From assembly GCA_020249465.1 (NCBI GenBank), contig JADCFP010000031.1, forward strand, positions 1 to 53,534: 53,534 nucleotides of DNA, read 5' to 3'. Position numbers and translations under genes: made by a program. The notes below the pieces were generated by a model. That model did no database searches and was not told the origin of the DNA. It saw only the letters and a program-made list of their open reading frames with translations. The number at the start of each line of letters is the position of its first letter. Within the stretch, counting starts at the first letter, position 1. Below are positions 2,870-29,715 of this stretch, one piece after another. Source of the stretch: Roseomonas sp. GTDB lineage: Bacteria > Pseudomonadota > Alphaproteobacteria > Acetobacterales > Acetobacteraceae.

Positions 2870-5800
2870 TCAGGGCGTATTGAACAGCGCCAGAAGCGCG
2901 GCCAGACCATCACTGTAGTTGGTATTCCCTACCAGGATCACATCATCGCCCGCACCGCCCACAAGCCGGTCCAAGCCATCGCCCCCTACAATAGTATCAT
3001 TTCCCGCACCGCCATTCAGCGTATCCGCGCCGCTCTCACCAAAGAGCAAATCATGATCATTACCGCCCAATAGGCTATCGTCATAGGCGGTACCAAAGGT
3101 GCCGGTGATCCCGATCAGGCTATCAAGACCATCCGCGCCGGAGCTTCGGCCAATAGAAAGATCAACCGTTACTGCACCGGCTGCAAAGCGATAATCTGCC
3201 AGGTCCTGACCGCTACCACCGATGATCGTATCATTGCCTGTGCCCCCCCTAAGAAACTCATTCGTATTGCCACCAAGAAGGCTGTCGTCGCCATCACCGC
3301 CCCGTAGCTCCATATTGATGCCACCCCCGGCGGTCACCGTATCATTGCCTTCTCCCCCTTCAAGAATATGAAAGAAACCACCTGTGGCGGTCAGACTATC
3401 GGCTCCCTCGTTGCCATTCATTACTTTTCCGGCACCAAGGGCGACAAGTGTATCGTTGCCTTCAGCACCATAAAGATATTGCGCAATGCCTTCACCACCC
3501 AACAGGCTGTCGTTACCTTCATTTCCCCAAAGGTTCTGGAAAGACCCGCTGCCCCCAACCAGCGTATCATTGCCATTTCCGCCTGAGAGATAGGTGCTGT
3601 AATAGGCGCCGCCCTGGTCAGAAGCGGCGCCGGCAACAAGGCTATCCGCTCCGTCACCTCCAGCAACGAATTCATCGTCACCAAACCCTGCAAGCAAGGT
3701 ATCGTCGCCGTTCCCACCCGACAGGCTCTGCCCCGCAGCATTGCCCAACCTACCGTCCAACAGGTCATTACCGCCGCCACCGATCAGCGTATCGCTGCCG
3801 CCGCCGCCCAAAACAGTATCCGCACCCGACCCACCATCGAGGATATTGCCAAGACCATTCCCCAAAATGCTGTCGTTATTCGCGGCACCCAAAACATTTT
3901 CGATGCTGATTAGAACGTCAGTCTCAGAAACGCTAAACCCGACAAGGGCTGTCCCGGCGGCAAGATCAACGACTACACGCGCGAAAGGCCCATCAATGAT
4001 TCTGGGATGGTTCAGGAAAACGGCCCAGTCATTGCCAGCGCCGCCAAACACGGTATCGGCGCCGAAACCGCCTTCAAAAGTTTCGTCAGAAGCTGTGCCG
4101 AAAAGCGAGTCGTCTCCAAAGGATCCGAACAGAAACTGCCCGGCACCCCCGCCCGCGACAAGGGTGTCAGCCCCGGCATCGCCACCTGAGAGGGTCTGCG
4201 CGGTGCCAAAGGCGGCCAGGATGCTATCGTCGCCCCTGCTGCCTAACACACCCTCGAAGCCTGAAAGACTATCAACCCCGAGACCCTCAGCGCGGCCAGT
4301 CGCCAAATTGATTGTCAGCGGGGTGGAGATTTCATCATAAACTACCCAATCGGCGCCCCCGGCGCCGCCTGCAAGTGTATCATTACCCAGGCCACCGCTC
4401 AGGCTTTCATTGCCAGCGCTGCCAAATAGGGAATCATTACCACTGCCCCCCAAAACCCCCGCGGCACCGACAATGCTATCTCTGCCCGGGGACCCGAAAT
4501 TACGGCCGGTGACAAGGTCTACCGTCTGATCAAATGACCACATTGCATAGCTCACCCAAGAACCTGGGCCGGAACTCACTATCGTGTTCTGGCCAGACGC
4601 ACCCGAAAGGGTCGCGGTAGCCAATTCAGAGATCAGAAAATCATCGCCCAGGCCACCATCCAGGAACTGACCTGCACCGCTGCCCGCCGAAAGGCTGTCA
4701 TTGCCCATTTCACCGAAAATGCTTTGAGCGCCGCCATCACCGCCGAAAAGTCGGTCATCTTCGTTGCCGCCCAGCAGATACGTGCCAAAGCCACCCCCAC
4801 CATAAAGCGTATCCGCGCCCACATCCCCAGCAAGAGTGGCGCCGCCCAATCCTCCGACCAGGTAATCATTCCCTAACCCGCCATGCAGTGAAGCAGCGCT
4901 TCCGGCGCCACCCAAAAGCGAATCAGCGCCCGCATCCCCTGATATTGTCTGATTAAGGCCAGAGCCGCCAACCAAACTATCCGCATCATCGCCGCCGAAT
5001 AACTCCTGATTATCGCCGCTACGGCCCACAAGCGTATCGGTACCGGCGCCGCCAGAGAGCCATTGCTTGCCGGTCGGGCCAAATCTATCGCTCGCCAAGA
5101 GCGAATCAGCACCCGCGCCACCATCGAGCGAGGAACCGCCGCTGGCTATACCGCCCGAGAGAGTATCAGCGCCGTCCTCCCCCACCAGGGTCTGAGAGGC
5201 GCCTACGCTCAGAAGGCTATCCCCATCTGCCCCACCGAACAGGTACACATCAAAACTGGTACCAGTCAGCGTATCAGCACCCGCATCACCCCGAAGGGTT
5301 TGAACTTGCAAACCTGCCTGAAGACTATCTGCGCCCGCGCCACCCGATAGGCTATGATTATAGCCCTCGCCACCAATCAGCGTATCGTCGCCAGCATCAC
5401 CGGAAAGTGTCTGGTCATTTCCAACGCCACTCAACAGCAGATCATTATTATTGCCCCCAAAAAGATATGCCCGACTGCTCGATGAGCGGGCGCCACCGCC
5501 CGCCAGCGTATCGGCGCCCGCGTCGCCTGCGAGGGTTTGATTTTCATTAAAGGGGCCTGCCAGCAAACTGTCATTGCCTTCACCCCCAGCCAGTGACTGG
5601 TCCGCGAGCGTCGAGATTGACAGAGCTGTCAGCGTATCGCTGCCGGCATCGCCAGAAAGAGTTTGCTCCCTGAAACTGGCCACCAAGCTATCATCGCCCT
5701 GCCCGCCAGAAGCACTTTCATAGCCGGCCTGCAGCGTGTCATGGCCGTCATCGCCAGACGCATATTGCGCGAAACCGCCAATAATTCTGTCGTCGCCATC

Positions 5801-6490
5801 ACCGCCGGCAAGCGTGGAATAGGAAGCGCCACCGGTGATGGTGTCATTCCCCCCAGCACCGCTCAAGACCATGGCCTCGAAGCCAAGGCTGGTGCCTGCG
5901 GTCAGACTATCGGCGAGGTTACTCCCAATGGCAATGTCAATGCCGAAAAGACTGTCATTGCCCGCAGCGCCAGAACTACGCCCTACGGTTTGCGGGGGCG
6001 CGAAACTGGTATTGACAGCGTTGATATTGATGGTGACACCGCCTGAGGCAGCCCGATAATCCACAATATCGCGATGATACCCGCCTACTAGCGTATCGTC
6101 GCCAAGTCCACCAACCAATATATCATCGTTGATGCCGCCATCCAGCCAATCATTCCCATCGGCACCAAAAAGACTGTCATTGCCATAGTTACCAGATAAA
6201 GAGTCGTTCGCGCCGGCACCAATCAGGGTATCGGCATAGCTCCCCCCTTCAAGCGCTTCAATCGAGATAAAAGTATCATTGCCCGCCGCACCACTGCTGC
6301 GGCCCGTGCTCAAATCAGCGAGGACACCGCCGGTCGCACTCCAGTACCCTACCCAATCATTGCCGCCGCCTCCGTCAATCCAATCATTGAAGCTGCCGGA
6401 AATGATGGTGTCATCGCCGACGGTGGATGGCGGAAATGAGGTCGGAGAAACCGTATCATTGAATAATGAGGACAGTACAAGAAACGCCAT
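2870..6490 (-). CDS. Giant RTX-like repeat protein (1206 aa)
   Basis: Complete gene of 1206 codons; a GGAGG motif stands 8 nt before the ATG at 6490. The protein is almost all Gly/Asp repeats: canonical GGxGxDxL nonapeptides at both ends, a long central tract of 19-residue Gln-type repeats, and about six copies of a 40-residue module of the form WVxYxxxxxxxxVDLxxGRxxGxxGxDSL. No catalytic domain, cysteine or signal peptide is seen. It ends DDVILVGNTNYSDGLAALLALFNTP, a hydrophobic tail consistent with an uncleaved C-terminal type I secretion signal. Such all-repeat RTX proteins are typically calcium-stabilised extracellular or surface-layer-like proteins; that is inferred. A PrtD/PrtE-type exporter is encoded about 26 kb away at 32467-35531. 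Confidence 0.88.
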   Translation of the reverse strand: MAFLVLSSLFNDTVSPTSFPPSTVGDDTIISGSFNDWIDGGGGNDWVGYWSATGGVLADLSTGRSSGAAGNDTFISIEALEGGSYADTLIGAGANDSLSGNYGNDSLFGADGNDWLDGGINDDILVGGLGDDTLVGGYHRDIVDYRAASGGVTININAVNTSFAPPQTVGRSSGAAGNDSLFGIDIAIGSNLADSLTAGTSLGFEAMVLSGAGGNDTITGGASYSTLAGGDGDDRIIGGFAQYASGDDGHDTLQAGYESASGGQGDDSLVASFREQTLSGDAGSDTLTALSISTLADQSLAGGEGNDSLLAGPFNENQTLAGDAGADTLAGGGARSSSSRAYLFGGNNNDLLLSGVGNDQTLSGDAGDDTLIGGEGYNHSLSGGAGADSLQAGLQVQTLRGDAGADTLTGTSFDVYLFGGADGDSLLSVGASQTLVGEDGADTLSGGIASGGSSLDGGAGADSLLASDRFGPTGKQWLSGGAGTDTLVGRSGDNQELFGGDDADSLVGGSGLNQTISGDAGADSLLGGAGSAASLHGGLGNDYLVGGLGGATLAGDVGADTLYGGGGFGTYLLGGNEDDRLFGGDGGAQSIFGEMGNDSLSAGSGAGQFLDGGLGDDFLISELATATLSGASGQNTIVSSGPGSWVSYAMWSFDQTVDLVTGRNFGSPGRDSIVGAAGVLGGSGNDSLFGSAGNESLSGGLGNDTLAGGAGGADWVVYDEISTPLTINLATGRAEGLGVDSLSGFEGVLGSRGDDSILAAFGTAQTLSGGDAGADTLVAGGGAGQFLFGSFGDDSLFGTASDETFEGGFGADTVFGGAGNDWAVFLNHPRIIDGPFARVVVDLAAGTALVGFSVSETDVLISIENVLGAANNDSILGNGLGNILDGGSGADTVLGGGGSDTLIGGGGNDLLDGRLGNAAGQSLSGGNGDDTLLAGFGDDEFVAGGDGADSLVAGAASDQGGAYYSTYLSGGNGNDTLVGGSGSFQNLWGNEGNDSLLGGEGIAQYLYGAEGNDTLVALGAGKVMNGNEGADSLTATGGFFHILEGGEGNDTVTAGGGINMELRGGDGDDSLLGGNTNEFLRGGTGNDTIIGGSGQDLADYRFAAGAVTVDLSIGRSSGADGLDSLIGITGTFGTAYDDSLLGGNDHDLLFGESGADTLNGGAGNDTIVGGDGLDRLVGGAGDDVILVGNTNYSDGLAALLALFNTP
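4620..5690 (-). repeat. Array of 19-residue Gln-containing RTX-variant repeats
   Basis: The central part of the 1206-residue RTX-like protein repeats with a 19-residue period, for example VGGSGLNQTISGDAGADSL, FGGDGGAQSIFGEMGNDSL and SAGSGAGQFLDGGLGDDFL. In some units Gln is replaced by Tyr, Ala or Ser (YGGGGFGTYLLGGNEDDRL). Units of 18 residues are interspersed. The same consensus occurs in the RTX gene at 1-2167, so it is a shared family trait. Limits are approximate. Confidence 0.65.
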
Positions 6491-9526: not shown

Positions 9527-11098
9527 ATGAACGCATCACCACCCTCCCTTTCGCAAACCCGCCCCCATGTCGCCGTAATCGGCGCCGGACCTGGGGGGCT
9601 GGCGGCTGCCATGCTGCTCGCTTCCTCCGGCGTCAGGGTCACGGTCTATGAGAAGGATGGCGTGGTCGGCGGGCGCACGCGCACGATCACGGCCCCCGGC
9701 GGCTATCGCTTCGATATCGGGCCGACCTTCTTTTTGTATCCGCGCATTCTGGCAGAAATCTTCGAAGCCTGCGGCGCGCGGCTTGAGGATGAGGTGGATC
9801 TGATCCGCCTTGATCCGCAATACCGGCTGATCTTTGAAGGCGCCAATCCGGTCACGATAGATGCATCGCCCGATCTGGCGCGCATGGAAGCGGAGGTCGC
9901 GAAGATCAACCCCGCAGATGCGCCAGGTGTGCGGAGCTTCATGGCGGAAAACCGCGTGAAGCTGGAAGCCTTCCGCCCCGTGCTGGAACGGCCCTTTCAT
10001 GGCGTGATGACCTATCTGGCGCCGGAAGTGATGAATGGCTTGCGCCATTTGCGGCCCTGGCTTTCGCTGGATCAGGAATTGCAAAGACACTTTTCTGATC
10101 CGCGCACGCGGCTCGCGTTTTCCTTCCAGTCCAAATACCTGGGCATGAGTCCCTTCCGCTGCCCGAGCATGTTCTCCATCCTGTCCTTCCTGGAATATGA
10201 ACATGGCGTGTTTCATCCGCGCGGCGGTTGCGGTGTGGTATCGGAAGCCATGGCGCGCGTCGCTGAGAGTGTCGGCGTGGATATCCGCCTGAATACCAAG
10301 GTGGATCGCATTGTCTTCGAAGGCCGCCGCGCCGTGGGTGTTGAAGCGGGCGGGCGGTTGCATGCGGCGGATGCGGTGGTGGTGAATGCTGATTTCGCCC
10401 ATGCCATTCCGGGGCTGATGGAAGAAGAACAGCGCCCGCAATGGCCCGACAAGAAAATCGCCGAGGCGCGTTATTCCTGTTCAACCTTCATGCTTTACCT
10501 TGGCATTGAAGGGAAGCTTGATCTGGCGCATCACTCGGTGCTGCTGGCCGAGGATTATGAGAATAATCTGGCGCAGATCGAAGCCGGCATTATTCCGCAA
10601 AACCCATCGCTGTATGTGCAGGCGGCGGCGGGCACTGATCCGTCACTCGCCCCGCCCGGGCATTCCACGCTTTATATGCTGGTGCCGGTGCCGAATTTGT
10701 TGGGCGGCGCTGACTGGGCCGCTGAGGCGCCGCGTTATCGGCGGCTGGCGTTGGATCGGCTGAAGGTGCTTGGCCTGCATGATATCGAAAGCCGCATTCG
10801 GTATGAGAAAATCCTCTCGCCGCAGGGTTGGCAGGATGAATATGCGGTTGGCTATGGGGCCACCTTCAACCTGGCGCATAATGTGCGGCAGATGATGCAT
10901 TTCCGCCCGCGCAACCGCTTTGGCCGCGCGAAGGGTGTTTATCTGGTGGGCGGCGGCACGCATCCGGGCAGTGGCTTGCCGGTGATTTACGAAGGTGCGC
11001 GCATCAGCACCGATTTGTTGTTGCAGGATCTGGGCCTCGCGCGGAGCGAGCGCAGCCCGCGCCAGATGCGGGCAAATGCGTCCGTAGCTGGTGAGTGA
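9527..11098 (+). CDS. crtN: CrtN-like C30 carotenoid desaturase (phytoene-desaturase superfamily)
   Basis: FAD enzyme of 523 residues of the CrtI/CrtN/CrtP superfamily. The N-terminal motif is VAVIGAGPGGLAAAMLLASS followed by GVVGGRTRTI, and the C-terminal FAD motif is GVYLVGGGTHPGSGLPVIYE. The middle has HPRGGCGVVSEAMARVAE, typical of carotenoid desaturases. It is the first gene of an operon that also encodes squalene-forming enzymes, so a role in dehydrogenating a C30 backbone (squalene to diapo-carotenoids) is the best reading. Whether this one or the next gene is the desaturase rather than the terminal-methyl oxidase cannot be settled from sequence alone; I favour desaturase here. No strong ribosome site is seen before the ATG. 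The next gene starts 15 nt downstream. Confidence 0.8.
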   Translation: MNASPPSLSQTRPHVAVIGAGPGGLAAAMLLASSGVRVTVYEKDGVVGGRTRTITAPGGYRFDIGPTFFLYPRILAEIFEACGARLEDEVDLIRLDPQYRLIFEGANPVTIDASPDLARMEAEVAKINPADAPGVRSFMAENRVKLEAFRPVLERPFHGVMTYLAPEVMNGLRHLRPWLSLDQELQRHFSDPRTRLAFSFQSKYLGMSPFRCPSMFSILSFLEYEHGVFHPRGGCGVVSEAMARVAESVGVDIRLNTKVDRIVFEGRRAVGVEAGGRLHAADAVVVNADFAHAIPGLMEEEQRPQWPDKKIAEARYSCSTFMLYLGIEGKLDLAHHSVLLAEDYENNLAQIEAGIIPQNPSLYVQAAAGTDPSLAPPGHSTLYMLVPVPNLLGGADWAAEAPRYRRLALDRLKVLGLHDIESRIRYEKILSPQGWQDEYAVGYGATFNLAHNVRQMMHFRPRNRFGRAKGVYLVGGGTHPGSGLPVIYEGARISTDLLLQDLGLARSERSPRQMRANASVAGE

Positions 11099-11113: not shown

Positions 11114-12697
11114 ATGGGTGCCAAGGTAGTTGTCATCGGCAGCGGTTTGGGTGGGCTTGCAGCCGCCGCCACCGCGCAGGCGCGTGGACATCAGGTTACG
11201 GTTCTTGAACGCAACTCCTGGCTGGGCGGCAAGGCCGCCGTATTGAATCTGCCATCCCCTGATGGGCGCGGGAATTTCCGCTTCGATATGGGGCCCACTA
11301 TCCTGACCGTGCCGCGCGTGCTGCGTCGCATCTTCGCTGAAGCCGGGCGCAATCAGCAGCAGGAAATGCCGCTGATCCGGCTTGATCCGCAATGGCGCTG
11401 CTTTTTTGATGGCAGCAAGCAGATTGATCTGATCGAAAACGTCCAGGATATGGCGCGTTCCATGGATGCTTTCGCGCCGGGCGGGCCGAATGGTGCGGGG
11501 TATGAACGCTTCCAGCGCGTCGCGCGCCATTTGCACAAGGTTTCGGAGAAGTTCTTCTTCTGGAAGCCGGTGGAAGGCATTGGCGATACGCTGAACCTTG
11601 GCGATAATTTCAAGCCCGATGTGCTGCGCGATGTGATGGCTTTGCGTATGGGCCAGACGGTGGCGAAGGTGATTCGCGGCCATGTGCCGAATGAGCAATT
11701 GGCGCAGATGCTTGATCACTTCACGCAATATGTCGGATCAAGCCCTTACCTTGCGCCGGCGGTGCTGTGCAGCATTGGCGATATGCAGGCGTCCGAAGGT
11801 GTGTGGTATCCGGTGGGCGGTACGCGCGCCACGGCTGAAGGGCTCGCCAATCTCGCAGCCTCACTCGGTGCTGATCTGCGCACCAATGCCGAGGTGACGG
11901 ATATTGAGATTGTGAACGGCGCAGTACGCAGCGTGACCGCCAATGGCGAACGCATTGCCTGTGATGCGCTGATTTCCAACATGGATGCCATCCGCACCTA
12001 CACGGAATTGGTGAAGGGCAATGCATCGCAGCGCTATGCGAAGAAGTATGAGCCAGCCTGTTCTGGCGTTGTGCTCTATCTCGGGCTCAATCGCCGCTAT
12101 GAGCATTTGGCGCATCATGATTTCGTCTTCTCCCGCGATGCGGAAGAGGAATTCGATGCGATTTATCGCAAGGGTGAACCGGCGCCCGATCCCACTGCCT
12201 ATCTCGCCGCGCCATCGGGCACGGATCCTTCGGTAGCACCCGAAGGGGGCGAAGCGCTTTATGTGCTGGTGCACACACCCTATCTTCGCCCGCATCATGA
12301 TTGGTCGAAGATGTTCCCGGCCTATCGCCAGAAGATCCTGGATAAGCTGAAGCGCACGGCGGGGCTGGAAGATATTGAAAGCCGCATTGTCTGCGAAAGC
12401 CACTTGACGCCGGTGGATATCCATAACCGCTACAAGGTGCTGAATGGCGCGATTTACGGCCTGGCATCGCATGGCTCCTTCACCGGCGCCTTCAAGCCGA
12501 GCAATCGCAGCAAGGCGATCAAGGGCCTCTATTTGGCCGGCGGCGCGGCGCATCCCGGCCCTGGCATGCCAATGGTCATGATGTCCGGCTGGATCGCGGC
12601 CGATGCTTTGGACCGTGATCTTGGCGGGCGCGGCATGTCCCCCGAAGCGGAATTGGCCGGCCGGCGAGAGGCCGATCTGCCAGCCGCGGCGGAATGA
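11114..12697 (+). CDS. Second carotenoid desaturase/oxidase (CrtN/CrtP-like)
   Basis: FAD enzyme of 527 residues in the same superfamily as the preceding gene but clearly diverged from it. It starts with VVVIGSGLGGLAAAATAQAR and SWLGGKAAVL, carries YPVGGTRATAEGLANLAASL in the middle and ends with GLYLAGGAAHPGPGMPMV. A good ribosome site (AAGGAGAG) precedes the ATG. In known C30 pathways (Methylomonas, Staphylococcus) one homologue desaturates the backbone and another, CrtP/CrtNb, oxidises a terminal methyl to an aldehyde. With an aldehyde dehydrogenase at the end of this operon, a CrtP-like oxidase is expected, and this gene is my candidate by elimination. The stop overlaps the next start by 4 nt. 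Confidence 0.78.
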   Translation: MGAKVVVIGSGLGGLAAAATAQARGHQVTVLERNSWLGGKAAVLNLPSPDGRGNFRFDMGPTILTVPRVLRRIFAEAGRNQQQEMPLIRLDPQWRCFFDGSKQIDLIENVQDMARSMDAFAPGGPNGAGYERFQRVARHLHKVSEKFFFWKPVEGIGDTLNLGDNFKPDVLRDVMALRMGQTVAKVIRGHVPNEQLAQMLDHFTQYVGSSPYLAPAVLCSIGDMQASEGVWYPVGGTRATAEGLANLAASLGADLRTNAEVTDIEIVNGAVRSVTANGERIACDALISNMDAIRTYTELVKGNASQRYAKKYEPACSGVVLYLGLNRRYEHLAHHDFVFSRDAEEEFDAIYRKGEPAPDPTAYLAAPSGTDPSVAPEGGEALYVLVHTPYLRPHHDWSKMFPAYRQKILDKLKRTAGLEDIESRIVCESHLTPVDIHNRYKVLNGAIYGLASHGSFTGAFKPSNRSKAIKGLYLAGGAAHPGPGMPMVMMSGWIAADALDRDLGGRGMSPEAELAGRREADLPAAAE

Positions 12698-13512
12698 CGA
12701 CAGGCCAGGCAAAACAAGTGCCTGATCCGGTGGCGCTGCGTTCAGCGCGCCATCTGGATTTTTTCGATTTTATGTTCACGCGGTTTTTCCGCAACCACAT
12801 GCGCGCGCTGCGCGTGGCGCGCTGGGGCCTGCCCGAATTGCCGGAAGGCAAGCCAGTGGTGATTTTCGCCAATCACCCTTCCTGGTGGGATGGCGTTGCC
12901 TTCATGCTGCTCTATCGGCGGCTTTTGCCGCACCGGCCGCTTTTTACGCCGATGGATGCGAAGGCCATTGAGAAATATCGCTTCATGACACGGCTTGGCG
13001 TTTTCGGGATCGAGACCGGCTCCGCACGCGGTTCGGTTGCGTTTCTGCGTGTGGTGGAAAAGGTGCTGGCGAATCCCGCGCATATTCTTTGGATCAATGC
13101 GCCGGGGCGCTTCAGTGATCCGCGCGAAAGGCCTGTGCCGATTGCGCCCGGCATGATCCGCCTGCCGGAGATTGCGCCCGAGGCTGTGTTTGTGCCGCTT
13201 GCTTTGGATTACCCGTTCTGGACTGAGCGCAAGGCAGAAATGCTCGCGGCTTTCGGCGCGCCCATCCCTGCCGCCGCGCTGCTGGAAGCGCCGCGAGAGG
13301 CGCGTAGCGCCATGCTATCCGATGCCTTGGCGGGCGTGATGGAAAAGCTCAGCACCGATGCCATTGCGCGTGACCCGGCAGCGTTTCAAACCCTGGTGCA
13401 GGGGCGCGAAGGCATGGGCGGCATTTATCAAGCCTGGCGCCGCGCCAAGGCGCTGCTGCGCGGTGAACGCTTCGACCCCCGACATGATCAACGCGCGGAG
13501 ACAGCGCCATGA
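12694..13512 (+). CDS. PlsC-type acyltransferase
   Basis: Protein of 272 residues with FANHPSWWDG near residue 52, the H-x4-D catalytic motif of the glycerolphosphate/lysophosphatidate acyltransferase family. Within a carotenoid operon it probably acylates the sugar of a glycosylated carotenoid, the step done by CrtO in staphyloxanthin synthesis, although S. aureus CrtO belongs to a different and shorter family, so this would be a non-homologous replacement. That role is inference from context; a lysophospholipid acyltransferase is the alternative. It overlaps the previous and next genes by 4 nt each. Confidence 0.72.
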   Translation: MTTGQAKQVPDPVALRSARHLDFFDFMFTRFFRNHMRALRVARWGLPELPEGKPVVIFANHPSWWDGVAFMLLYRRLLPHRPLFTPMDAKAIEKYRFMTRLGVFGIETGSARGSVAFLRVVEKVLANPAHILWINAPGRFSDPRERPVPIAPGMIRLPEIAPEAVFVPLALDYPFWTERKAEMLAAFGAPIPAAALLEAPREARSAMLSDALAGVMEKLSTDAIARDPAAFQTLVQGREGMGGIYQAWRRAKALLRGERFDPRHDQRAETAP

Positions 13513-14612
13513 CAGATTTCCTGCCCTGGATAGCGCTTGCCTTGGCGCTGATGCCGGTCGGTTTCGCCATAGATAACCTCCGCCGCATGGCAAAGGCGCA
13601 CGGGCCGGCGCCGAAGGATGCGCTGGTATCCATTCTGATCCCGGCGCGTAATGAGGAAGCGCATATCAGCGCCTGCCTTGATGCCGCACTCGCACAGCAA
13701 GGTGTCGCTATTGAAGTGCTGGTGATGGATGATGGGTCGAGCGATCGCACCGCCGCGATTGTGAATGCCTACGCAGTGCGTGATGCGCGGGTGCGGCTGC
13801 TGGCCTGCCCGCCGCTGCCGCAGGGCTGGACCGGCAAGGTGCATGCCTGTGCGCGCTTGGCGGAAGCGGCACGGGGGACGCATTTCCTGTTCATTGATGC
13901 CGATGTGCGGCTTGCGCGTGATGCCGCAGCGCGCATGTCCGGCCATGCGGCGCAGCAAAAGCTTGCCATGGTAACCGGCGTGCCGCGCCAGATCATTGGT
14001 ACTTTGGGAGAGGCGCTGACCGTGCCCATGATCAACCTGCTGCTGATCGGCTATCTGCCTGGCGGCGGTCGGGCCGAGACTGAACGTGCGGAACTTGGCG
14101 CTGCGTGTGGGCAATTGATCCTGTTCGAACGCAGCGCCTATGAATCCATCGGCGGGCATGGCGCCATCCGCACCCTGTTGCATGATGGCTTGCAGCTTTC
14201 CCGCAAGCTGCGCGGCGCTGGGTTCCGAACGGAAATGGTGGAAGGCGTGCGGCTTGCCGAATGCCGCATGTATGATGGGCTGCGTTCAAGCTGGAATGGC
14301 TTCATCAAGAATGCGCATGAAGGCATGGCGACACCCATTGGCCTGCCGATCTGGACGACGCTTTTGGCGGGTGCGCATATCTGGCCCTTCTTTCTGCTGC
14401 CGGAATGGCAGGCAGCCCTTGCCATTCTGCTCGTCTTTGGCTTGCGCGCTGCCATTACCTACAAAACCCGCGAAGCCTGGTGGACCGTGCCGCTGCATCC
14501 CTTTGCGGTGTTGGTTGGGCTTGCCATTCAATGGACCGCGCTTGTGCGGGTGCTGATCGGGCGCCCTGCCGGTTGGAAGGGCCGCGCCTATTCCGCCAGC
14601 GGCACGGCATGA
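13509..14612 (+). CDS. Family 2 glycosyltransferase (CrtQ/HpnB-like)
   Basis: Protein of 367 residues with an N-terminal membrane segment, then a GT-A fold: SILIPARNEEAHISACLDAA, VMDDGSSDRT, and FIDADVRL carrying the DxD-like metal site. PQGWTGKVHACARL is typical of the HpnB/CrtQ branch. Hydrophobic segments near the C-terminus (about 285-350) suggest membrane attachment. By context it would transfer a sugar to the carboxyl of a C30 carotenoic acid, as CrtQ does, giving a glycosyl ester that the neighbouring acyltransferase could acylate. HpnB-type hopanoid-related transferases are a sequence-level alternative, but no squalene-hopene cyclase is nearby. Starts and stops overlap neighbours by 4 nt. 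Confidence 0.75.
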   Translation: MTDFLPWIALALALMPVGFAIDNLRRMAKAHGPAPKDALVSILIPARNEEAHISACLDAALAQQGVAIEVLVMDDGSSDRTAAIVNAYAVRDARVRLLACPPLPQGWTGKVHACARLAEAARGTHFLFIDADVRLARDAAARMSGHAAQQKLAMVTGVPRQIIGTLGEALTVPMINLLLIGYLPGGGRAETERAELGAACGQLILFERSAYESIGGHGAIRTLLHDGLQLSRKLRGAGFRTEMVEGVRLAECRMYDGLRSSWNGFIKNAHEGMATPIGLPIWTTLLAGAHIWPFFLLPEWQAALAILLVFGLRAAITYKTREAWWTVPLHPFAVLVGLAIQWTALVRVLIGRPAGWKGRAYSASGTA

Positions 14613-16270
14613 CGAAACAAAGCGCTGCCTCCCGCGCGCCAACACGTGACGCGGGGTCTGAGAATTTCCCTGTCGCGTCCCGGTTGCTGGCGCCGGAAAT
14701 TCGCCCGAAGGTGCTGGGCTTTTACCGCTTCGTGCGCACCGCTGATGATATTGCCGATGATCCGTCACTAGACACTTCGGAAAAGCTGCGCCGCCTGGCC
14801 GCACTTGAAGCCGCGCTTGATGATCCCGCAACGGCGGAACCCGCTGCCACTTCCTTGCATCGCGCTGGTAGCGGCACGGATGAAGCGCGGTTGATGCTCT
14901 CTGCCTTTCGGCAGGACGCAGTGCAAGCGCGTTACGTGGATTGGGCAGGATTGGAAGATTACTGCGCGCGGTCAGCCAATCCTGTCGGGCGCATGTTGCT
15001 CCGCTTGCATGATGAAACGAAACCGGAGGCCATCGCGGCCGCCGATGCACTTTGCACCGCCTTGCAAATCCTCAATCACCTGCAGGATCTCGTGCCGGAT
15101 CGGCGCGATATCGGGCGCGTCTATCTGCCCGAGCCCTGGATGGATTTGGCCGGCGGTGAGGTGCGCTTCTTTGACCCCACCAAGACTGAAGCGCGGCGCG
15201 CCGTGCTGGATGCTGCGCTGGATCAAGTAGAGGAAAGGCTGGATGCCGCCGCCGCGCTGCCGCGCCTGATCGCGGCGAAGCGCCTGGCGCGCGAAAGTGC
15301 TGTGACCATCGCGCTGGCGCGACGACTGTTGGCGCGGCTGCGCGCGGCGGACCCGGTGCTGGGGCGCGTTGCTTTGTCGCGGTGGGATTTTTTGCATGGC
15401 TTTCGCGCGGCACTCGGCACAGGCCCAAGCGATGCAGCGCTGGTCAGTGCGCGCGTCGGGCGCGCAGGGTCTTCCTTCGCGCGCGGCATGTCGGCGCTCA
15501 AGGGCGAAAGGCGGCGCGCGCTTTGGGCGGTATATGCTTTTTGCCGCGCGGTGGATGACATTGCCGATGGGGCGATGCCAGAGGCGGAAAAGCGCCGGTT
15601 CCTCGCGGATTGGCGCGGCAAGCTCCGCGCGCCCGATTGTGCGCTCTCGCGCGAATTGGCGCAGGCACGCAGCGCCTTCGCACTGCCGATTGAAGAATGC
15701 GAAGCCATGATTGCGGGGATGGAAACTGATTCTACGCCAAGGCTGCGCATCGCCGATACCGAAGCGCTGAACCTTTACTGCCGCCGCGTCGCCGGCAGTG
15801 TTGGCGCCATGGCGGTGCGGATTTTCGGCGCACCGGAAGCCGCTGATTTCGGCCTTCGGCTTGGGCGCACGCTGCAATTGGTGAATATCCTGCGCGATCT
15901 GGATGAAGATGCAACGCGCGATCGCGTCTATTTGCCGCTTGATCTGCTGGCGGCTGAAGGTGTGGCTGACGCGCCCGCCGCAACATTAATCGCAAGCCCA
16001 GGCTTTGCGCGCGCCGCGGCACATTTGGCACAGCAAGCCGAAGCCGGCTTCGCACAAGCGGCGGCCGAGTTGCGCCATTTGGATCAGCGCGCGCTTTTGC
16101 CCGCGCGCATCATGATGTGGGGCTATCAGCGGCTATTTGAACGCCTGATGGCGCGCGGTTTTGGCTTGCCGCGACCACGCCCGCGCCTGACACGCGGCGA
16201 GAAGCTGCAAATGGCCGCCTATGCCATGGGAATCATGCCCATGCCGCAAGCAAGCACCCACCGCGCGTGA
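14609..16270 (+). CDS. hpnCD: Fused HpnC-HpnD squalene synthase-like protein
   Basis: A 553-residue protein containing two complete trans-isoprenyl diphosphate synthase domains in one frame. Domain 1 (about 15-270) is HpnC-like: RTADDIADD at 43-51 is the first aspartate motif and NHLQDLVPD at 156-164 the second. Domain 2 (about 280-545) is HpnD-like: AVDDIADG at 314-321 and NILRDLDED at 426-434 are its aspartate motifs. In separate form, HpnD joins two farnesyl diphosphates to presqualene diphosphate and HpnC converts that to hydroxysqualene; HpnE, encoded next, reduces it to squalene. All metal-binding motifs look intact in both halves. The start chosen is the ATG overlapping the previous stop; an ATG at 14405 in the same frame lies inside the glycosyltransferase. 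The next gene begins at a 4-nt GTGA overlap. Confidence 0.88.
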   Translation: MTKQSAASRAPTRDAGSENFPVASRLLAPEIRPKVLGFYRFVRTADDIADDPSLDTSEKLRRLAALEAALDDPATAEPAATSLHRAGSGTDEARLMLSAFRQDAVQARYVDWAGLEDYCARSANPVGRMLLRLHDETKPEAIAAADALCTALQILNHLQDLVPDRRDIGRVYLPEPWMDLAGGEVRFFDPTKTEARRAVLDAALDQVEERLDAAAALPRLIAAKRLARESAVTIALARRLLARLRAADPVLGRVALSRWDFLHGFRAALGTGPSDAALVSARVGRAGSSFARGMSALKGERRRALWAVYAFCRAVDDIADGAMPEAEKRRFLADWRGKLRAPDCALSRELAQARSAFALPIEECEAMIAGMETDSTPRLRIADTEALNLYCRRVAGSVGAMAVRIFGAPEAADFGLRLGRTLQLVNILRDLDEDATRDRVYLPLDLLAAEGVADAPAATLIASPGFARAAAHLAQQAEAGFAQAAAELRHLDQRALLPARIMMWGYQRLFERLMARGFGLPRPRPRLTRGEKLQMAAYAMGIMPMPQASTHRA

Positions 16271-17493
16271 GCACAACGGCCACATGCCATGTCATTGGCG
16301 CTGGAGTCGCGGGCTTGGCGGCGGCGCTGCGCCTCGCACAGCGTGGCCGCGCTGTGATGCTGCATGAAGCGACACCCGTGGCGGGCGGGCGCTGTCGTGC
16401 GTTGCCCGATGGCACGGATAACGGCACCCACGCGCTGATGGGCGCCAATCGCGCCGCGCTGCGTTTCCTGACCGATATCGGGGCGCGAGAGGGTTGGGTG
16501 GAAGCCGAACCGGAAGGCCTGCCGGTTTTTGATCTGGCCGATGGCAGCGCACGACGCATTGCCGCAAGCCCGCTTGATTGGCGCGATCCTGCGAAGCGCC
16601 CACCGGGGTTGAAAGCTGCTGCCTTCGCGACGCTGCTGCGCCTTGCTTTGCCGATTGGTGATCGCCCCGTGGCGGAGGTGATGGCAGCGCATCCCGCGCT
16701 ATATCGTGCGTTGATTGAACCTTTGACCGTGGCAGCACTGAATACGCCAGGGCATGAGGCATCATCCGCGCGGCTTGGCGTGGTGTTGCGCAGGCTTGGG
16801 CGGCCAGGCGCGGGCGCGGTGCTCGTGGCGCGTGAAGGGCTCGGGCCGGATTTGATTGCGCCTGCGCTCCACGCCTTACAGCACGCGGGAGTCACGACGC
16901 GTTTCGGGGCGCGGTTGCGCGCCATGACGGAAGCGGAAGGGCGCATCATTGCGCTGCATTTCGGTGATGACAGCATCGCGCTGGAAGCGCGGGATCAGGT
17001 GGTGCTGGCGCTGCCGCCCTGGGAAGTCGCGCGGCTAATCCCGAAGCTGCGCGTGCCGGAACGCCATGCGCCGATTCTCAATCTGCATTTCGCGCATGGC
17101 GGTACGGGGCCGGTGCGCTTCATCGGTGTGCTTGGTGGGCTCACGCAATGGGTCCTGGTGCGCCCGAGCGGCGTGAGTGTCACCGTGAGTGCGGCAGATG
17201 CCGAAGTTGAAGAGCAGGCGCCGGATTTGGCGCCGCGCGCCTGGGCGGAAATTCGTGCTGCCGCCAGGGGTTTTGGCTTGCCTGGCGATTGGCCGGAAGC
17301 GCCACCTGCGATGCGCGCGGTGAAGGAACGGCGCGCCACACCGCGCCATGCGGTGGGCATGCCGCCGCAACCACCGCGGCAGGTTTATCGCAACCTGGTG
17401 CTGGCCGGGGATTGGACCTGGCCGCGCCTGCCCGCCACCATCGAAGCTGCGGTGCTATCTGGTGAGGCTGCGGCAAAAGCGTTGCCCTCATGA
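16267..17493 (+). CDS. hpnE: HpnE-like hydroxysqualene reductase (FAD-dependent)
   Basis: A 408-residue flavoprotein starting at GTG inside a GTGA overlap with the fused synthase gene. The N-terminus has CHVIGAGVAGLAAALRLAQ then ATPVAGGRCR, and the C-terminus has LVLAGDWTWPRLPATIEAAV, the usual HpnE ending; length matches the family. HpnE reduces hydroxysqualene to squalene, the last step of the three-protein bacterial route. Its position immediately after the HpnC-HpnD fusion makes the assignment firm at family level. The operon links this squalene to carotenoid genes rather than to a hopene cyclase. Confidence 0.85.
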   Translation: MSTTATCHVIGAGVAGLAAALRLAQRGRAVMLHEATPVAGGRCRALPDGTDNGTHALMGANRAALRFLTDIGAREGWVEAEPEGLPVFDLADGSARRIAASPLDWRDPAKRPPGLKAAAFATLLRLALPIGDRPVAEVMAAHPALYRALIEPLTVAALNTPGHEASSARLGVVLRRLGRPGAGAVLVAREGLGPDLIAPALHALQHAGVTTRFGARLRAMTEAEGRIIALHFGDDSIALEARDQVVLALPPWEVARLIPKLRVPERHAPILNLHFAHGGTGPVRFIGVLGGLTQWVLVRPSGVSVTVSAADAEVEEQAPDLAPRAWAEIRAAARGFGLPGDWPEAPPAMRAVKERRATPRHAVGMPPQPPRQVYRNLVLAGDWTWPRLPATIEAAVLSGEAAAKALPS

Positions 17494-18830
17494 CGCCTGG
17501 TGAAGCCCTGGCCGCCTTGCGTGCTGCTGAAGCGCGTGATGGCGCGCCCAATCTCAAGCAACGTCGCGCGTTGTTGGCGGCACTCGCACGCGCCGTGATG
17601 GCGCGCTCGCACGAGATCATGGCGGTGCTCGATGCAGAATATGAAGGCCGCGCGCCGATCGAAACCTTGCTCGCGGATGTGCTGCTGGTGGCCGATGCAG
17701 CGCGTTATGCGCGGCGTAATCTGTGGCACTGGATGCGCCCGCGCCGCGTGAGCGTGCCCTATCCCTTCTGGCCCGCCCGCGCGCGGGAGGAATTCGTCCC
17801 GAAAGGCGTAGTCGGCATCATGGCGCCGTGGAATTACCCGGTGCAATTGGCGCTGCTGCCCGCGATTGATGCCATTGCGGCCGGCAATCGCGTGTGCGTG
17901 AAACCATCGGAAGCGCTGCCACGTACCGCCGCCCTGATTGCAGATATTTTGCGTGACGCCTGCGGTGATGACATGGCGCTTTGCGTGCAAGGCGGCGCGG
18001 AAGTTGGTGCGGATTTCGCGGCGCAAGCATGGGATCATCTGGTCTTTACGGGCAGCACCGCGACGGGGCGTAAGATCATGGCCGCTGCCGCGCCGAACCT
18101 CACGCCCCTCACGCTAGAACTGGGCGGCAAATGCCCGGCGCTGGTGCTGCCGGGCGCGGACCTCAAGCGTGCCGCACGCGATATTCTGGCGGGCAAGGCC
18201 TTCAATGCCGGGCAAACCTGTGTGGCGCCGGATACGGTGCTGCTGGTTGGCCATGGCAAGCAGGCTTTCATTGATGCCTGCCGGGAAACCGGCATCGGCC
18301 TGCCGGAAACCGCCGTGATCAATGCCGCCCAAATTACTCGGCTTAGGCACCTGATGACGGGCGCCAGCCTGACCCCCTTGGCCGAGGATGGACCAGGCCG
18401 CCGCATGGCGCTGACCCTGGCCGAGGCGCCGCCCGAAGCCGCCATCTGCCATGAGGAAATCTTCGGCCCGATACTACTTATGCGCGAAGAAACCTCACTT
18501 CAGTCAGCACTCGCCTGGGTTGCAGAGCGCCCCGCGCCCTTGGCCATCTATCTGTTTGGCGCAACGTCCGAGGAAGAAAATCAGGTCGCACGCATCGCGC
18601 GCGGCAGCGCCATCATCACCGGGCGCACTGTGGAATTTGCGGGTTTTCAAGCCTTGGGTTTCGGTGGGTCTGGCGATTCCGGCTTTGGGCGACGCAATGG
18701 GCTGGCAGGTTTTCTGGAATTCTCCCATCGCCGCGCCCGCGTCTATCATGGGAAATTTTCCCTGTCTCGCCTATTCGATCAACCTCGCGGGAAAGCTGTG
18801 GAAAGGTTAAAAAATTTTCTAGCCAAATAG
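17490..18830 (+). CDS. Aldehyde dehydrogenase, probable carotenoid aldehyde oxidation
   Basis: A 446-residue NAD(P)-dependent aldehyde dehydrogenase of the class 3/coniferyl aldehyde type. Visible motifs are GIMAPWNYPVQL, FTGSTATGRKIM, LELGGKCPALV with the general-base Glu, and FNAGQTCVAPD with the catalytic Cys. Class 3 enzymes are shorter than typical ALDHs, which fits. As last gene of the carotenoid operon it probably oxidises a C30 carotenoid terminal aldehyde to the acid, as the aldehyde dehydrogenases of the Methylomonas and Staphylococcus pathways do. It starts at an ATGA overlap with hpnE. Substrate is inferred from context only. Confidence 0.85.
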   Translation: MTPGEALAALRAAEARDGAPNLKQRRALLAALARAVMARSHEIMAVLDAEYEGRAPIETLLADVLLVADAARYARRNLWHWMRPRRVSVPYPFWPARAREEFVPKGVVGIMAPWNYPVQLALLPAIDAIAAGNRVCVKPSEALPRTAALIADILRDACGDDMALCVQGGAEVGADFAAQAWDHLVFTGSTATGRKIMAAAAPNLTPLTLELGGKCPALVLPGADLKRAARDILAGKAFNAGQTCVAPDTVLLVGHGKQAFIDACRETGIGLPETAVINAAQITRLRHLMTGASLTPLAEDGPGRRMALTLAEAPPEAAICHEEIFGPILLMREETSLQSALAWVAERPAPLAIYLFGATSEEENQVARIARGSAIITGRTVEFAGFQALGFGGSGDSGFGRRNGLAGFLEFSHRRARVYHGKFSLSRLFDQPRGKAVERLKNFLAK

Positions 18831-26447: not shown

Positions 26448-26640
26448 CGGGTCCGTAGCTGCGAATCGTGGATTTCACATATAAGTCGTCTGCGGCAGGA
26501 ATGCGACAAAAACCGGAATCGCCGTCACCTTACCGATGGTGATTGCGCGCGTTGCGCCACGCCAGACGACCCCGCGGCGTTTAACGTCTTCTTTATGGCT
26601 ACCTTCTAAATTTTGATCCTTCTCCTTGGGGTGCAGGATC

Positions 26641-29112
26641 ATGAATGCTTTCAACGCCGTGATGCTCAGACGCTTTGTCGGTGGTTGGCAGGATCATTTG
26701 CTGTTGCAATCGAATGAGGGCGAAGGGCGCGACGGCCTTTGGCTGGCGCCGATTGCGATTGCCGAAGTCACTCTGCCAGAGCTCGCCCCCTCTGCCATCA
26801 GCGTGCAAACTCCGGTGATTACACTTGCGGTAGAGGTGAGCTTGGGGGCAGCTTCTTTACCGACCCGGGTCGAGGAACCCGGCGCAAATCCCATCGACAT
26901 TATTGGCGAAGATCCGGTCGATACAGGTGAAGCTTTCCTGAACTCCGCCATAATGGAGGAAGTGGGCGAAATTCCTTTTCTCGAGGTCGGCGGCATTTCC
27001 GGTGATAGTGGAGAGCCTTTCTTCGGCGTATCCGAGATAGAGGATTCCAGCGAAATCTTCATTGCCCTGGCAAGCAATGATCCCGGCTATACGGGCGGGT
27101 CCTTGTGGGGGATGCTTGGGGATACCGGCCCGGTGCGTAATGCCTTTGGCAGCCAAGCAAATGAGGCCTGGGCAAGGGGAGATGTTGGGGCCACTTCAAG
27201 CGTGGTGGGCGTGATTGATACGGGCATTGATTACAGGCACCCCGATCTTTACCTGAATATCTGGCTCAATCAACGCGAAATCCCGACCACGCTCCGCGCA
27301 AGGCTTCGTGACATTGATACCGACGGCCTGATCACCTTCCGTGATCTCAATAATGCATCCAACGCTTCCTATGTGCGGGATTACAATCGCAATGGCCTTA
27401 TTGATGCCGGCGATCTGTTGAGCGATTCCCGCTGGGAAAACCTCGTTGATGATGATGGCAACGGCTACCGCGATGATCTGATCGGCTGGGATTTCGTCAA
27501 TAACGACAATGATCCTTTTGATGACAATAGCCATGGTACGCATGTTGCCGGCACGATTGGCGGCATGGGAGGGAATGGCATTGGCGTGGCCGGCGTAAAT
27601 TGGGCCATTCAGATGATGCCGCTGAAATTCCTTTCCGCCAGCGGTTCTGGCGGTACTGCCGGTGCGATCAATGCGGTGAATTACTTCACGGATGCAGCCA
27701 GGCGCGCGAATGACGCCGAGGATTTCATCGCCACCAATAATTCCTGGGGCGGTGGTGGCTACTCGGCGCAATTGCAGGAAGCGATCAATCAGGCAGCGCG
27801 AAAGAATATCCTCTTCATCGCGGCTGCCGGCAATTCCGCCGCCAATAATGATGTGCAGGCGAATTACCCAACCAATTACTCGACCATCTCAGCCGCGGGG
27901 TACGAGGCGGTGGTATCCGTGGCGTCCATCACCGATACGGGTGTCCGTTCTTCCTTTTCCAATTACGGCGCGACCACGGTGGATATCGCCGCGCCGGGGT
28001 CATCCATTTATTCGACCTTGCCCAATGGTGGTTATGGCACCTATAGCGGCACTTCGATGGCGACCCCGCATGTGACGGGCGCGGTAGCACTTTACGCGGC
28101 AGAGCACCCGGAAGCCTCGGCCGCCGAAATTCGTGCGGCCTTGCTGGCAAGTGCCGCGGCGACCACGTCTTTGAATGGCCTGGTTGCGACCCATGGGCGG
28201 CTTGATATTGGTGCATTATTGGATATCACACCGAGCCTTCCCCCATCCACCGACCTGATCGCGGGTAGTACCGCGACTATGGCGTCGCTTTCGGCCAGCG
28301 CGCCCCAAACCTCCAGCATTGATTTTGGGGGGGATCAGGATTGGTTCCGCCTGACGCTCACCGCGGGTTGGCGCTATGATTTTGCCATGGATGCTGCGCC
28401 GGGTTCGTCGCTTGACGCCTATCTCCGGCTGCTGAACGCGAGTGGTCAGGCATTGGCCCTGAACGATGATGCGGTTGGCTTGAATTCCCGACTTGCCTTT
28501 GTGGTCAGCAGCAGCGGTACCTATTACTTGAGCGCGCAGGGCTTCGACGCGTCACGGGGCAATTATACCCTGACGATGACTGGCAGAGAAGCTGATCGGA
28601 CCATCATCGGCACCGCAAAAAATGACACCTTGAATGGCGCAAGTGGCAATGACAGCCTGGGCGGTGCTGCGGGCAATGACCTGCTTCAGGGCAATGCCGG
28701 ACAAGACACGCTATCAGGCCTGACCGGGAATGATACGCTGGATGGTGGTGCAGGCAATGACTGGCTGATTGGCGGTGCGGGGCGCGACTTGTTGATCGGC
28801 GGCGCAGGGGCGGATCGGTTCTGCTTCTTGACCCTTGCCGATAGCGTGTTTGGAACCAACCGCGACGTGGTCACGGCCTTCAGCCAAGCCGAGGGGGACC
28901 GGGTTGACCTGGCCGCGATTGACGCGAATTCCCGGCTTGCCGGGGATCAGGCATTTTCCTTCATTGGGGGCGCGTCTTTTGGCCGGATTGCCGGTCAGCT
29001 CCGTTTTGCGGGGGGCGTTCTTCAGGCGGATGTGAATGGCGACGCGCAGGCGGATATGGAGATCGCGATTCAGGGGGTGTCTTCCCTGCTGGTGGCAGAT
29101 TTCATTCTTTGA
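26641..29112 (+). CDS. Secreted subtilisin-like serine protease with RTX C-terminus (copy 1)
   Basis: An 823-residue S8-family protease. The catalytic triad is D193 (VVGVIDTGID), H298 (NSHGTHVAGT) and S472 (SGTSMATPHVTGA). Between D and H lies a long insert with three EF-hand-like loops: DIDTDGLITFRD (224-235), DYNRNGLIDAGD (247-258) and DDDGNGYRDD (270-279). After the catalytic domain comes a PPC-type beta domain (about 545-650), six or so RTX nonapeptides (GNDTLDGGAGNDWLIGGAG) and a serralysin-like C-terminal domain ending in DFIL, the type I secretion signal pattern. No signal peptide is present, as expected. The acidic N-terminal stretch (45-150) is absent from copy 2. The start chosen is the ATG matching the start of copy 2; a TTG 15 nt upstream is in frame. 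Confidence 0.93.
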   Translation: MNAFNAVMLRRFVGGWQDHLLLQSNEGEGRDGLWLAPIAIAEVTLPELAPSAISVQTPVITLAVEVSLGAASLPTRVEEPGANPIDIIGEDPVDTGEAFLNSAIMEEVGEIPFLEVGGISGDSGEPFFGVSEIEDSSEIFIALASNDPGYTGGSLWGMLGDTGPVRNAFGSQANEAWARGDVGATSSVVGVIDTGIDYRHPDLYLNIWLNQREIPTTLRARLRDIDTDGLITFRDLNNASNASYVRDYNRNGLIDAGDLLSDSRWENLVDDDGNGYRDDLIGWDFVNNDNDPFDDNSHGTHVAGTIGGMGGNGIGVAGVNWAIQMMPLKFLSASGSGGTAGAINAVNYFTDAARRANDAEDFIATNNSWGGGGYSAQLQEAINQAARKNILFIAAAGNSAANNDVQANYPTNYSTISAAGYEAVVSVASITDTGVRSSFSNYGATTVDIAAPGSSIYSTLPNGGYGTYSGTSMATPHVTGAVALYAAEHPEASAAEIRAALLASAAATTSLNGLVATHGRLDIGALLDITPSLPPSTDLIAGSTATMASLSASAPQTSSIDFGGDQDWFRLTLTAGWRYDFAMDAAPGSSLDAYLRLLNASGQALALNDDAVGLNSRLAFVVSSSGTYYLSAQGFDASRGNYTLTMTGREADRTIIGTAKNDTLNGASGNDSLGGAAGNDLLQGNAGQDTLSGLTGNDTLDGGAGNDWLIGGAGRDLLIGGAGADRFCFLTLADSVFGTNRDVVTAFSQAEGDRVDLAAIDANSRLAGDQAFSFIGGASFGRIAGQLRFAGGVLQADVNGDAQADMEIAIQGVSSLLVADFIL

Positions 29113-29291: not shown

Positions 29292-29715
29292 GCTGCTGCG
29301 CTTACGCGTCGCTTCGGATGGTGGGGCAGAATTGCCTTGATCGCAGTGGTTTTTGGTTATTAACTTATTGATTTTACAGCTTTGTCTCCTTCCCTGGCAG
29401 GTGAACCGATCCTGGCCCATGATCGGGATTGGATGGGGAGTGAGGCATTTTCGTAGGCAAATCGGATCGTCTGTTTCCAGAAAAACAGGCATCAACCGAA
29501 CTTGCCCGGCATGCATGCGGGCTCGCTTCCCGGCGTCCATATGCGATGCAGAGCAGCGAAAAAGCAGTAACCGTGTGATTTTTGATACGGAACTCCGGCC
29601 AGCTATGGGCTACATTACGTGATCAACGAGCTTGCTGGTTAAACGGCGACAATTCCGCTAGCCTCTCCTAACGAGAGGCTCACTAGAGCTAAATTTTCCC
29701 GTGGGGTTTGATGTC
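29292..29715. other. AT-richer intergenic region, paralogous to the region before prtD
   Basis: No convincing gene. The segment 29355-29460 aligns with 32282-32402 in front of the ABC transporter gene: both begin GGTTAYTA, continue through GCTTT, and share ATGATCGG (29419 and 32347) and a GTGAGG...TTTT block. Coding potential is broken by frameshifts and stops when the two copies are compared, so an untranslated leader or regulatory element duplicated with the protease is more likely than a gene. Confidence 0.5.
29660..29680 (+). promoter_or_regulatory. Perfect hairpin in leader of protease copy 2
   Basis: AGCCTCTC (29660-29667) and GAGAGGCT (29673-29680) make a perfect 8-bp stem with a 5-nt loop, ending 35 nt before the ATG at 29716. 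It could be an operator, an attenuator or an mRNA-stabilising structure. No counterpart is seen before protease copy 1. Confidence 0.45.

Follow-up and report, generated by a model that had tools for sequence, protein, structure and literature searches.

Here, we found that a single open frame of a Roseomonas sp. genome joins two complete squalene-synthase-like domains, HpnC first and HpnD second, and that this fused hpnCD gene lies within a compact operon of carotenoid type (contig JADCFP010000031.1 of assembly GCA_020249465.1, whose 53,534 analysed nucleotides we call the window). We consider it likely, at roughly 85%, that the product is a bifunctional enzyme of squalene-precursor synthesis and that the squalene would here most likely feed a C30 carotenoid, not hopanoids. 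This reading is based on the fusion itself, the intact motifs, purifying selection, operon-like overlaps, and genome searches in which neither a second hpnC or hpnD nor a hopene cyclase was found.

The fused gene occupies positions 14609 to 16270 of the forward strand and translates into 553 residues, with the terminal codon as its sole stop. The N-terminal half (residues 14-268, positions 14648 to 15412) exceeds the curated NCBIfam cut-off for HpnC (TIGR03464, 335.9 versus 250.45 bits as a whole-protein score), and the C-terminal half (residues 284-537, positions 15458 to 16219) exceeds that for HpnD (TIGR03465, 320.1 versus 278.6 bits); the two profile matches are separated by a linker of residues 269-283 (positions 15413 to 15457), and Pfam likewise finds two SQS_PSY stretches in the protein. 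Both aspartate-rich motifs are present in each half, as D46/D47/D50 and D160/D164 in HpnC and as D316/D317/D320 and D430/D434 in HpnD. Thus, the two complete domains in one uninterrupted frame that had been proposed by a sequence-only reading are borne out, and all ten aspartates it had named beforehand are indeed Asp in the translation. An ATGA overlap of 4 bases with the upstream glycosyltransferase gene argues for the start at 14609, as do relatives that match from about residue 5, and the 3' end overlaps the HpnE-like gene in a 4-base GTGA. By sequence, the nearest solved structures are 4hd1 (HpnC) for the first half and 8is6 (CrtM) for the second.

The more informative clue to function is the carotenoid-type operon, in which the gene order is CrtI-type, CrtI-type, acyltransferase, glycosyltransferase, hpnCD, HpnE-like and aldehyde dehydrogenase, all on the forward strand; at each of the last five junctions, the adjacent genes overlap by 4 bases. 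The names CrtN, CrtP, CrtO and CrtQ denote roles that we infer for the window genes. The first two are CrtI-family enzymes above the TIGR02734 cut-off of 238.1 bits, namely a CrtN-like desaturase (9527 to 11098, 501.8 bits) and a CrtP-like desaturase or oxidase (11114 to 12697, 392.8 bits). The acyltransferase with a putative CrtO-like role (12694 to 13512) passes PF01553 with 25.3 bits (cut-off 23) and has no NCBIfam match, and the family 2 glycosyltransferase with a putative CrtQ-like role (13509 to 14612) passes PF00535 with 74.9 bits (cut-off 23.3) and stays far under the NCBIfam cut-offs for CruG and HpnB. Downstream of hpnCD, the candidate hydroxysqualene dehydroxylase, an HpnE-like FAD enzyme (16267 to 17493), does not reach the HpnE cut-off (TIGR03467, 242.8 versus 283.05 bits) although the alignment extends over positions 2-428 of the 430-position profile; the shortfall counts against our reading. 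The last gene encodes an aldehyde dehydrogenase (17490 to 18830; PF00171, 210.2 bits, cut-off 23), a candidate for the oxidation of a C30 carotenoid aldehyde, for which none of the NCBIfam families shown attains its cut-off. According to the available text of PMC10448405, the counterpart of this enzyme in Methylobacterium extorquens AM1 is still unidentified, so that relatives of the 17490-18830 protein are candidates for it. As a whole, the cluster corresponds to the gene set of the squalene route to C30 carotenoids, the HpnE step being covered by the HpnE-like gene only.

What is known of these families suggests the reactions, the order in which they occur and the pigment. Presqualene diphosphate would be formed from two molecules of farnesyl diphosphate by the C-terminal HpnD half. 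The N-terminal HpnC half would turn this intermediate into hydroxysqualene, from which the HpnE-like enzyme encoded next would make squalene. The two CrtI-type desaturases, the aldehyde dehydrogenase, the glycosyltransferase and the acyltransferase could then carry squalene on to a C30 carotenoid. The supply of squalene for an acylated, glycosylated C30 carotenoid is the most economical reading of the gene set.

Could the HpnD half instead act like CrtM and make dehydrosqualene directly for the carotenoid genes, such that squalene would be no intermediate at all? The carotenoid-like operon and the protein named CrtM as best PDB sequence match of this half are what such a route would predict, but we regard it as improbable, since the half passes the HpnD cut-off, the HpnC half has been retained, and the HpnE-like gene overlaps the hpnCD stop codon by 4 bases. 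Moreover, in Azospirillum brasilense Sp7, in which hpnC and hpnD are not fused, squalene accumulates once crtNPOQ is deleted, as stated in the accessible part of PMC13274349.

Is the fused frame genuine? As the sequence-only reading had maintained, no stop or frameshift separates the domains: 31 of the 35 genus genomes, own genome counted, show a stop-free match across the HpnC/HpnD junction, a figure that takes in one match starting at residue 153 at a contig end (G009) and one ending at residue 502 (G006). A sequencing artefact is very unlikely, because the fusion recurs in 17 congeners, nearly full-length and with 90-95% identity. Three of the 35 genus genomes searched (G001, G003, G016) gave no match to the fusion, and these also miss the CrtP-like gene, i.e. 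both are jointly absent from three genus members. A fourth, G017, contains only a distant protein match (40% identity, residues 278-497); its CrtP-like gene is present on a short contig, which may end before the fusion. The match search of the genus genomes found no separate hpnC and hpnD in any of these four.

Within the genus, dN/dS values ranged from 0.069 to 0.232 for the HpnC half and from 0.034 to 0.164 for the HpnD half in 16 comparisons (16 of the 29 genus loci L006-L034, the three most distant being rough estimates with dS > 1 and saturated synonymous sites). Purifying selection acts on both halves. In a wider alignment of 57 fused rows, no catalytic aspartate column has fewer than 55 Asp; apart from one N and one G, the exceptions are gaps. 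The own genome (4.07 Mb, 97.5% complete) encodes two SQS_PSY proteins by Pfam besides the two halves of the fusion. One scores best with the CrtB model (380.3 bits, cut-off 500) and lies below the cut-offs for HpnD (165.4 bits) and HpnC (130.5 bits), and the other reaches 89.1 bits for HpnD against the cut-off of 278.6. Judged by these cut-offs, the genome search turned up no stand-alone hpnC or hpnD that could be doing the work in place of the fusion. The CrtB-like gene is located on contig C91 together with two further CrtI-family genes above cut-off, so that a second pathway, probably a C40 one, appears to exist apart from the window operon.

With both motif sets intact and both halves under purifying selection, the bifunctional squalene-pathway enzyme put forward by the sequence-only reading gains support at the sequence level. 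The channelling of presqualene diphosphate that this reading also proposed would be a conceivable advantage of the fusion. Eukaryotic squalene synthase performs both steps in one domain, and it is therefore conceivable that a single catalytic half does the whole conversion while the other is a structural remnant. We judge this to be quite unlikely, however, given that purifying selection acts on both halves, that each retains its catalytic aspartates, that the curated cut-offs for HpnC and for HpnD are both exceeded, and that the genome search returned no separate copy. That the open frame nevertheless gives rise to two proteins, through an internal start or cleavage of a linker that is indeed short and joins halves aligning to independent enzymes elsewhere, is hardly to be expected, as no in-frame ATG, GTG or TTG occurs at residues 263-293 and the HpnD half is thus left with no obvious start of its own.

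Is the carotenoid-type neighbourhood a common feature of the fusion? For 36 named fused loci from the Roseomonas group and Microvirga, we inspected flanks of up to 8 kb on either side. Among these named clade loci, which come from the 80 best-scoring of 575 in a protein search with a fused query, CrtP-like, acyltransferase and glycosyltransferase genes occur in 34 of 36, a separate CrtN-like gene in 33, an HpnE-like gene in 33 and an aldehyde dehydrogenase in 22, with some contigs ending early. One locus (L055) was not scored as CrtN-like, since its apparent CrtN hit reflects cross-matching with the CrtP-like frame at the end of a contig. Three loci (L075, L077, L078) show no HpnE-like match in the stretch examined despite carotenoid-type neighbours, which counts against our reading; their dehydroxylase may be encoded elsewhere or may be a different enzyme. 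Roseomonas sp. HF4 (L059) and Caldovatus sediminis (L072), which possess the fused hpnCD with an HpnE-like match and show no CrtI-type neighbours in the stretch examined, count against it as well, as does the aldehyde dehydrogenase count of only 22. A like gene set was seen in five Microvirga loci (L082-L084, L086, L087), whose fused hpnCD is sister to the Roseomonas-group version. Sequence comparison suggests that the carotenoid cluster may have moved by horizontal transfer between Microvirga and the Roseomonas group, in either direction.

Would the squalene serve hopanoids as well? We found no squalene-hopene cyclase (PF13249, PF13243) in the 97.5% complete own genome, and the C-terminal Pfam model of the cyclase had no match in any of the 35 genus genomes. 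Applied to 100 genomes of the family, each at least 95% complete, the same search gave a match in 90 and hence works in such genomes. The ten family genomes without a match are the own genome, G021, G039, G350, G359, G363, G389, G400, G402 and G421, and five of the ten carry an hpnCD fusion. A close fusion, defined by at least 65% identity spanning both halves, occurs in 22 of the 100 family genomes, three of these matches (G356, G407, G340) containing one TGA somewhere along their length; three further genomes (G035, G351, G414) contain translation-confirmed fusions at 39-44% identity, which brings the total to 22 to 25 of 100. A hopene cyclase is also present in 17 of the 22 genomes with a close fusion, which counts against a role in carotenoid synthesis only. 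In nine of these 17 the fusion is the sole query match at E 0.001 and would thus have to serve hopanoids there too. Such cases support the fusion as a working source of squalene and show its link to carotenoids to be non-exclusive. A 2021 survey reports, in its available text, that all Acetobacteraceae strains studied encode hopanoid biosynthesis proteins and that an acidophilic group typically lacks one or more hopanoid genes (PMC8776678).

How widespread is the fusion, and how often has its state changed? Of 289 sampled genomes of the class, 147 gave any match and at least 13, in eight family groups, contained a fusion (12 of them translated directly). We built a tree of 111 HpnC and HpnD pairs, 57 fused and 54 separate, which were drawn from 150 sequences (149 loci and the window) after leaving out 25 genus members, five one-domain loci and nine duplicates or thinned sequences (including L047). 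This tree, which carried a warning of long branches meeting, implies at least 11 state changes, nine of them forced by starred branches, and trees of the single halves give 11 and 12 changes with six and seven forced; these are quick trees without bootstrap, the named loci among their rows are the top 80 of 575 for a fused query, and the counts do not separate gains from losses. Together with sequences from the Roseomonas group, Microvirga, Inquilinus, isolate TMPK1 and relatives, the window protein forms a clade of 43 rows, all of them fused (SH-aLRT 99), which both half-trees recover as well. In a reduced tree of 70 rows (28 fused), with 18 long or odd rows omitted and 23 of the window's clade thinned, seven changes remain and six are forced; monophyly of all fused rows is rejected in this set (p-AU 4.7e-5). 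The addition of three more fusions to the 70 rows still yields seven changes, all forced.

Eight named loci of acetic-acid type were included in the tree (L102, L104, L108, L112, L113, L114, L118, L119). They carry separate genes in seven cases and all eight lie outside the window's clade, so mere fusion of the pair found in those relatives does not account for the window gene. Nearly all unfused pairs among the named loci lie in one frame. We ascribe this arrangement to selection by the search, as these loci are the best 80 of 575 by a fused query, whereas only one of 16 adjacent unfused pairs from whole-genome searches is in frame, or two of 17 when counting L146, which was left out of the former figure because it had been fetched for being in frame. 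Eight further candidate fusions, suggested by equal open-frame values, were discarded, since translation revealed separate open frames in all eight; three other loci (L173, L174, L176) are true fusions, and open-frame values were therefore given no weight. A broader scenario, in which fusion arose repeatedly in Alphaproteobacteria for the hand-over of presqualene diphosphate and the Roseomonas group and Microvirga exchanged a complete C30-carotenoid operon, is at this point a tentative and rather doubtful one.

Other long frames of the window were inspected by eye. Two neighbouring similar frames (26626-29112 and 29701-32016) resemble subtilisin-type proteases with C-terminal glycine/aspartate-rich repeats, and they are followed by frames resembling an ABC transporter and a membrane-fusion protein. 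On the reverse strand, a frame of 1206 residues (2870-6490) consists almost wholly of glycine/aspartate-rich repeats.

These results identify a likely squalene source for the compact carotenoid operon of the Roseomonas group. The natural fusions and their unfused sister pairs provide a usable set for asking if joining alters the transfer of the intermediate or the yield. Our results also carry a warning, in that hpnC and hpnD genes by themselves do not equal hopanoids.

The window fusion is another example of an already known fused HpnCD. The sequence-only reading knew of no described fusion of this kind, a view contradicted by its abundance in the family (22 to 25 of 100 genomes) and by a 2017 report, and novelty is thus ruled out: the available portion of PMC5462960 describes fused hpnCD in Acidobacteria, Actinobacteria and Alphaproteobacteria, its carriers including the majority of the subdivision 2 acidobacterial genomes examined there as well as Actinopolyspora, Blastococcus saxobsidens and Rhodospirillum centenum. 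In the openly licensed literature searched, mainly titles and abstract openings, we found neither a report that places such a fusion in the Roseomonas group or within an operon for C30 carotenoids nor an assay of a fused HpnCD protein. The acidobacterial, actinobacterial and Rhodospirillum centenum fusions are, in the same portion of PMC5462960, likewise single genes of approximately double size with HpnC first and HpnD second, a description that the window gene matches. The acidobacterial ones are reported there with bacteriohopanepolyol genes, whereas the window fusion lies in a carotenoid-type operon of a genome in which a hopene cyclase was not found.

Streptomyces fungicidicus p1 has separate HpnC, HpnD and HpnE of the same enzyme families and in the same C-D-E order as the window; there, hpnC and hpnD are two genes with a 4-base overlap and a hopene cyclase on the same stretch, whereas in the window they are fused. 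The squalene route to C30 carotenoids with separate hpnCDE and crt genes has experimental support in Methylobacterium extorquens AM1 (PMC10448405, available text). In Azospirillum brasilense Sp7, carotenoids were lost and squalene was not detected once hpnCDE had been deleted (PMC13274349, accessible part). We had considered Azospirillum brasilense as functional proof for the fusion and rejected it, as hpnC and hpnD are separate frames there (L135). As far as these partial texts describe them, AM1 and Sp7 share with the window an hpnCDE-type supply, CrtN/P-type enzymes, a glycosyltransferase and an acyltransferase; in both, however, hpnC and hpnD form two genes, and those for squalene are found at a different locus from the carotenoid genes, whereas the window unites them all in one overlapping operon.
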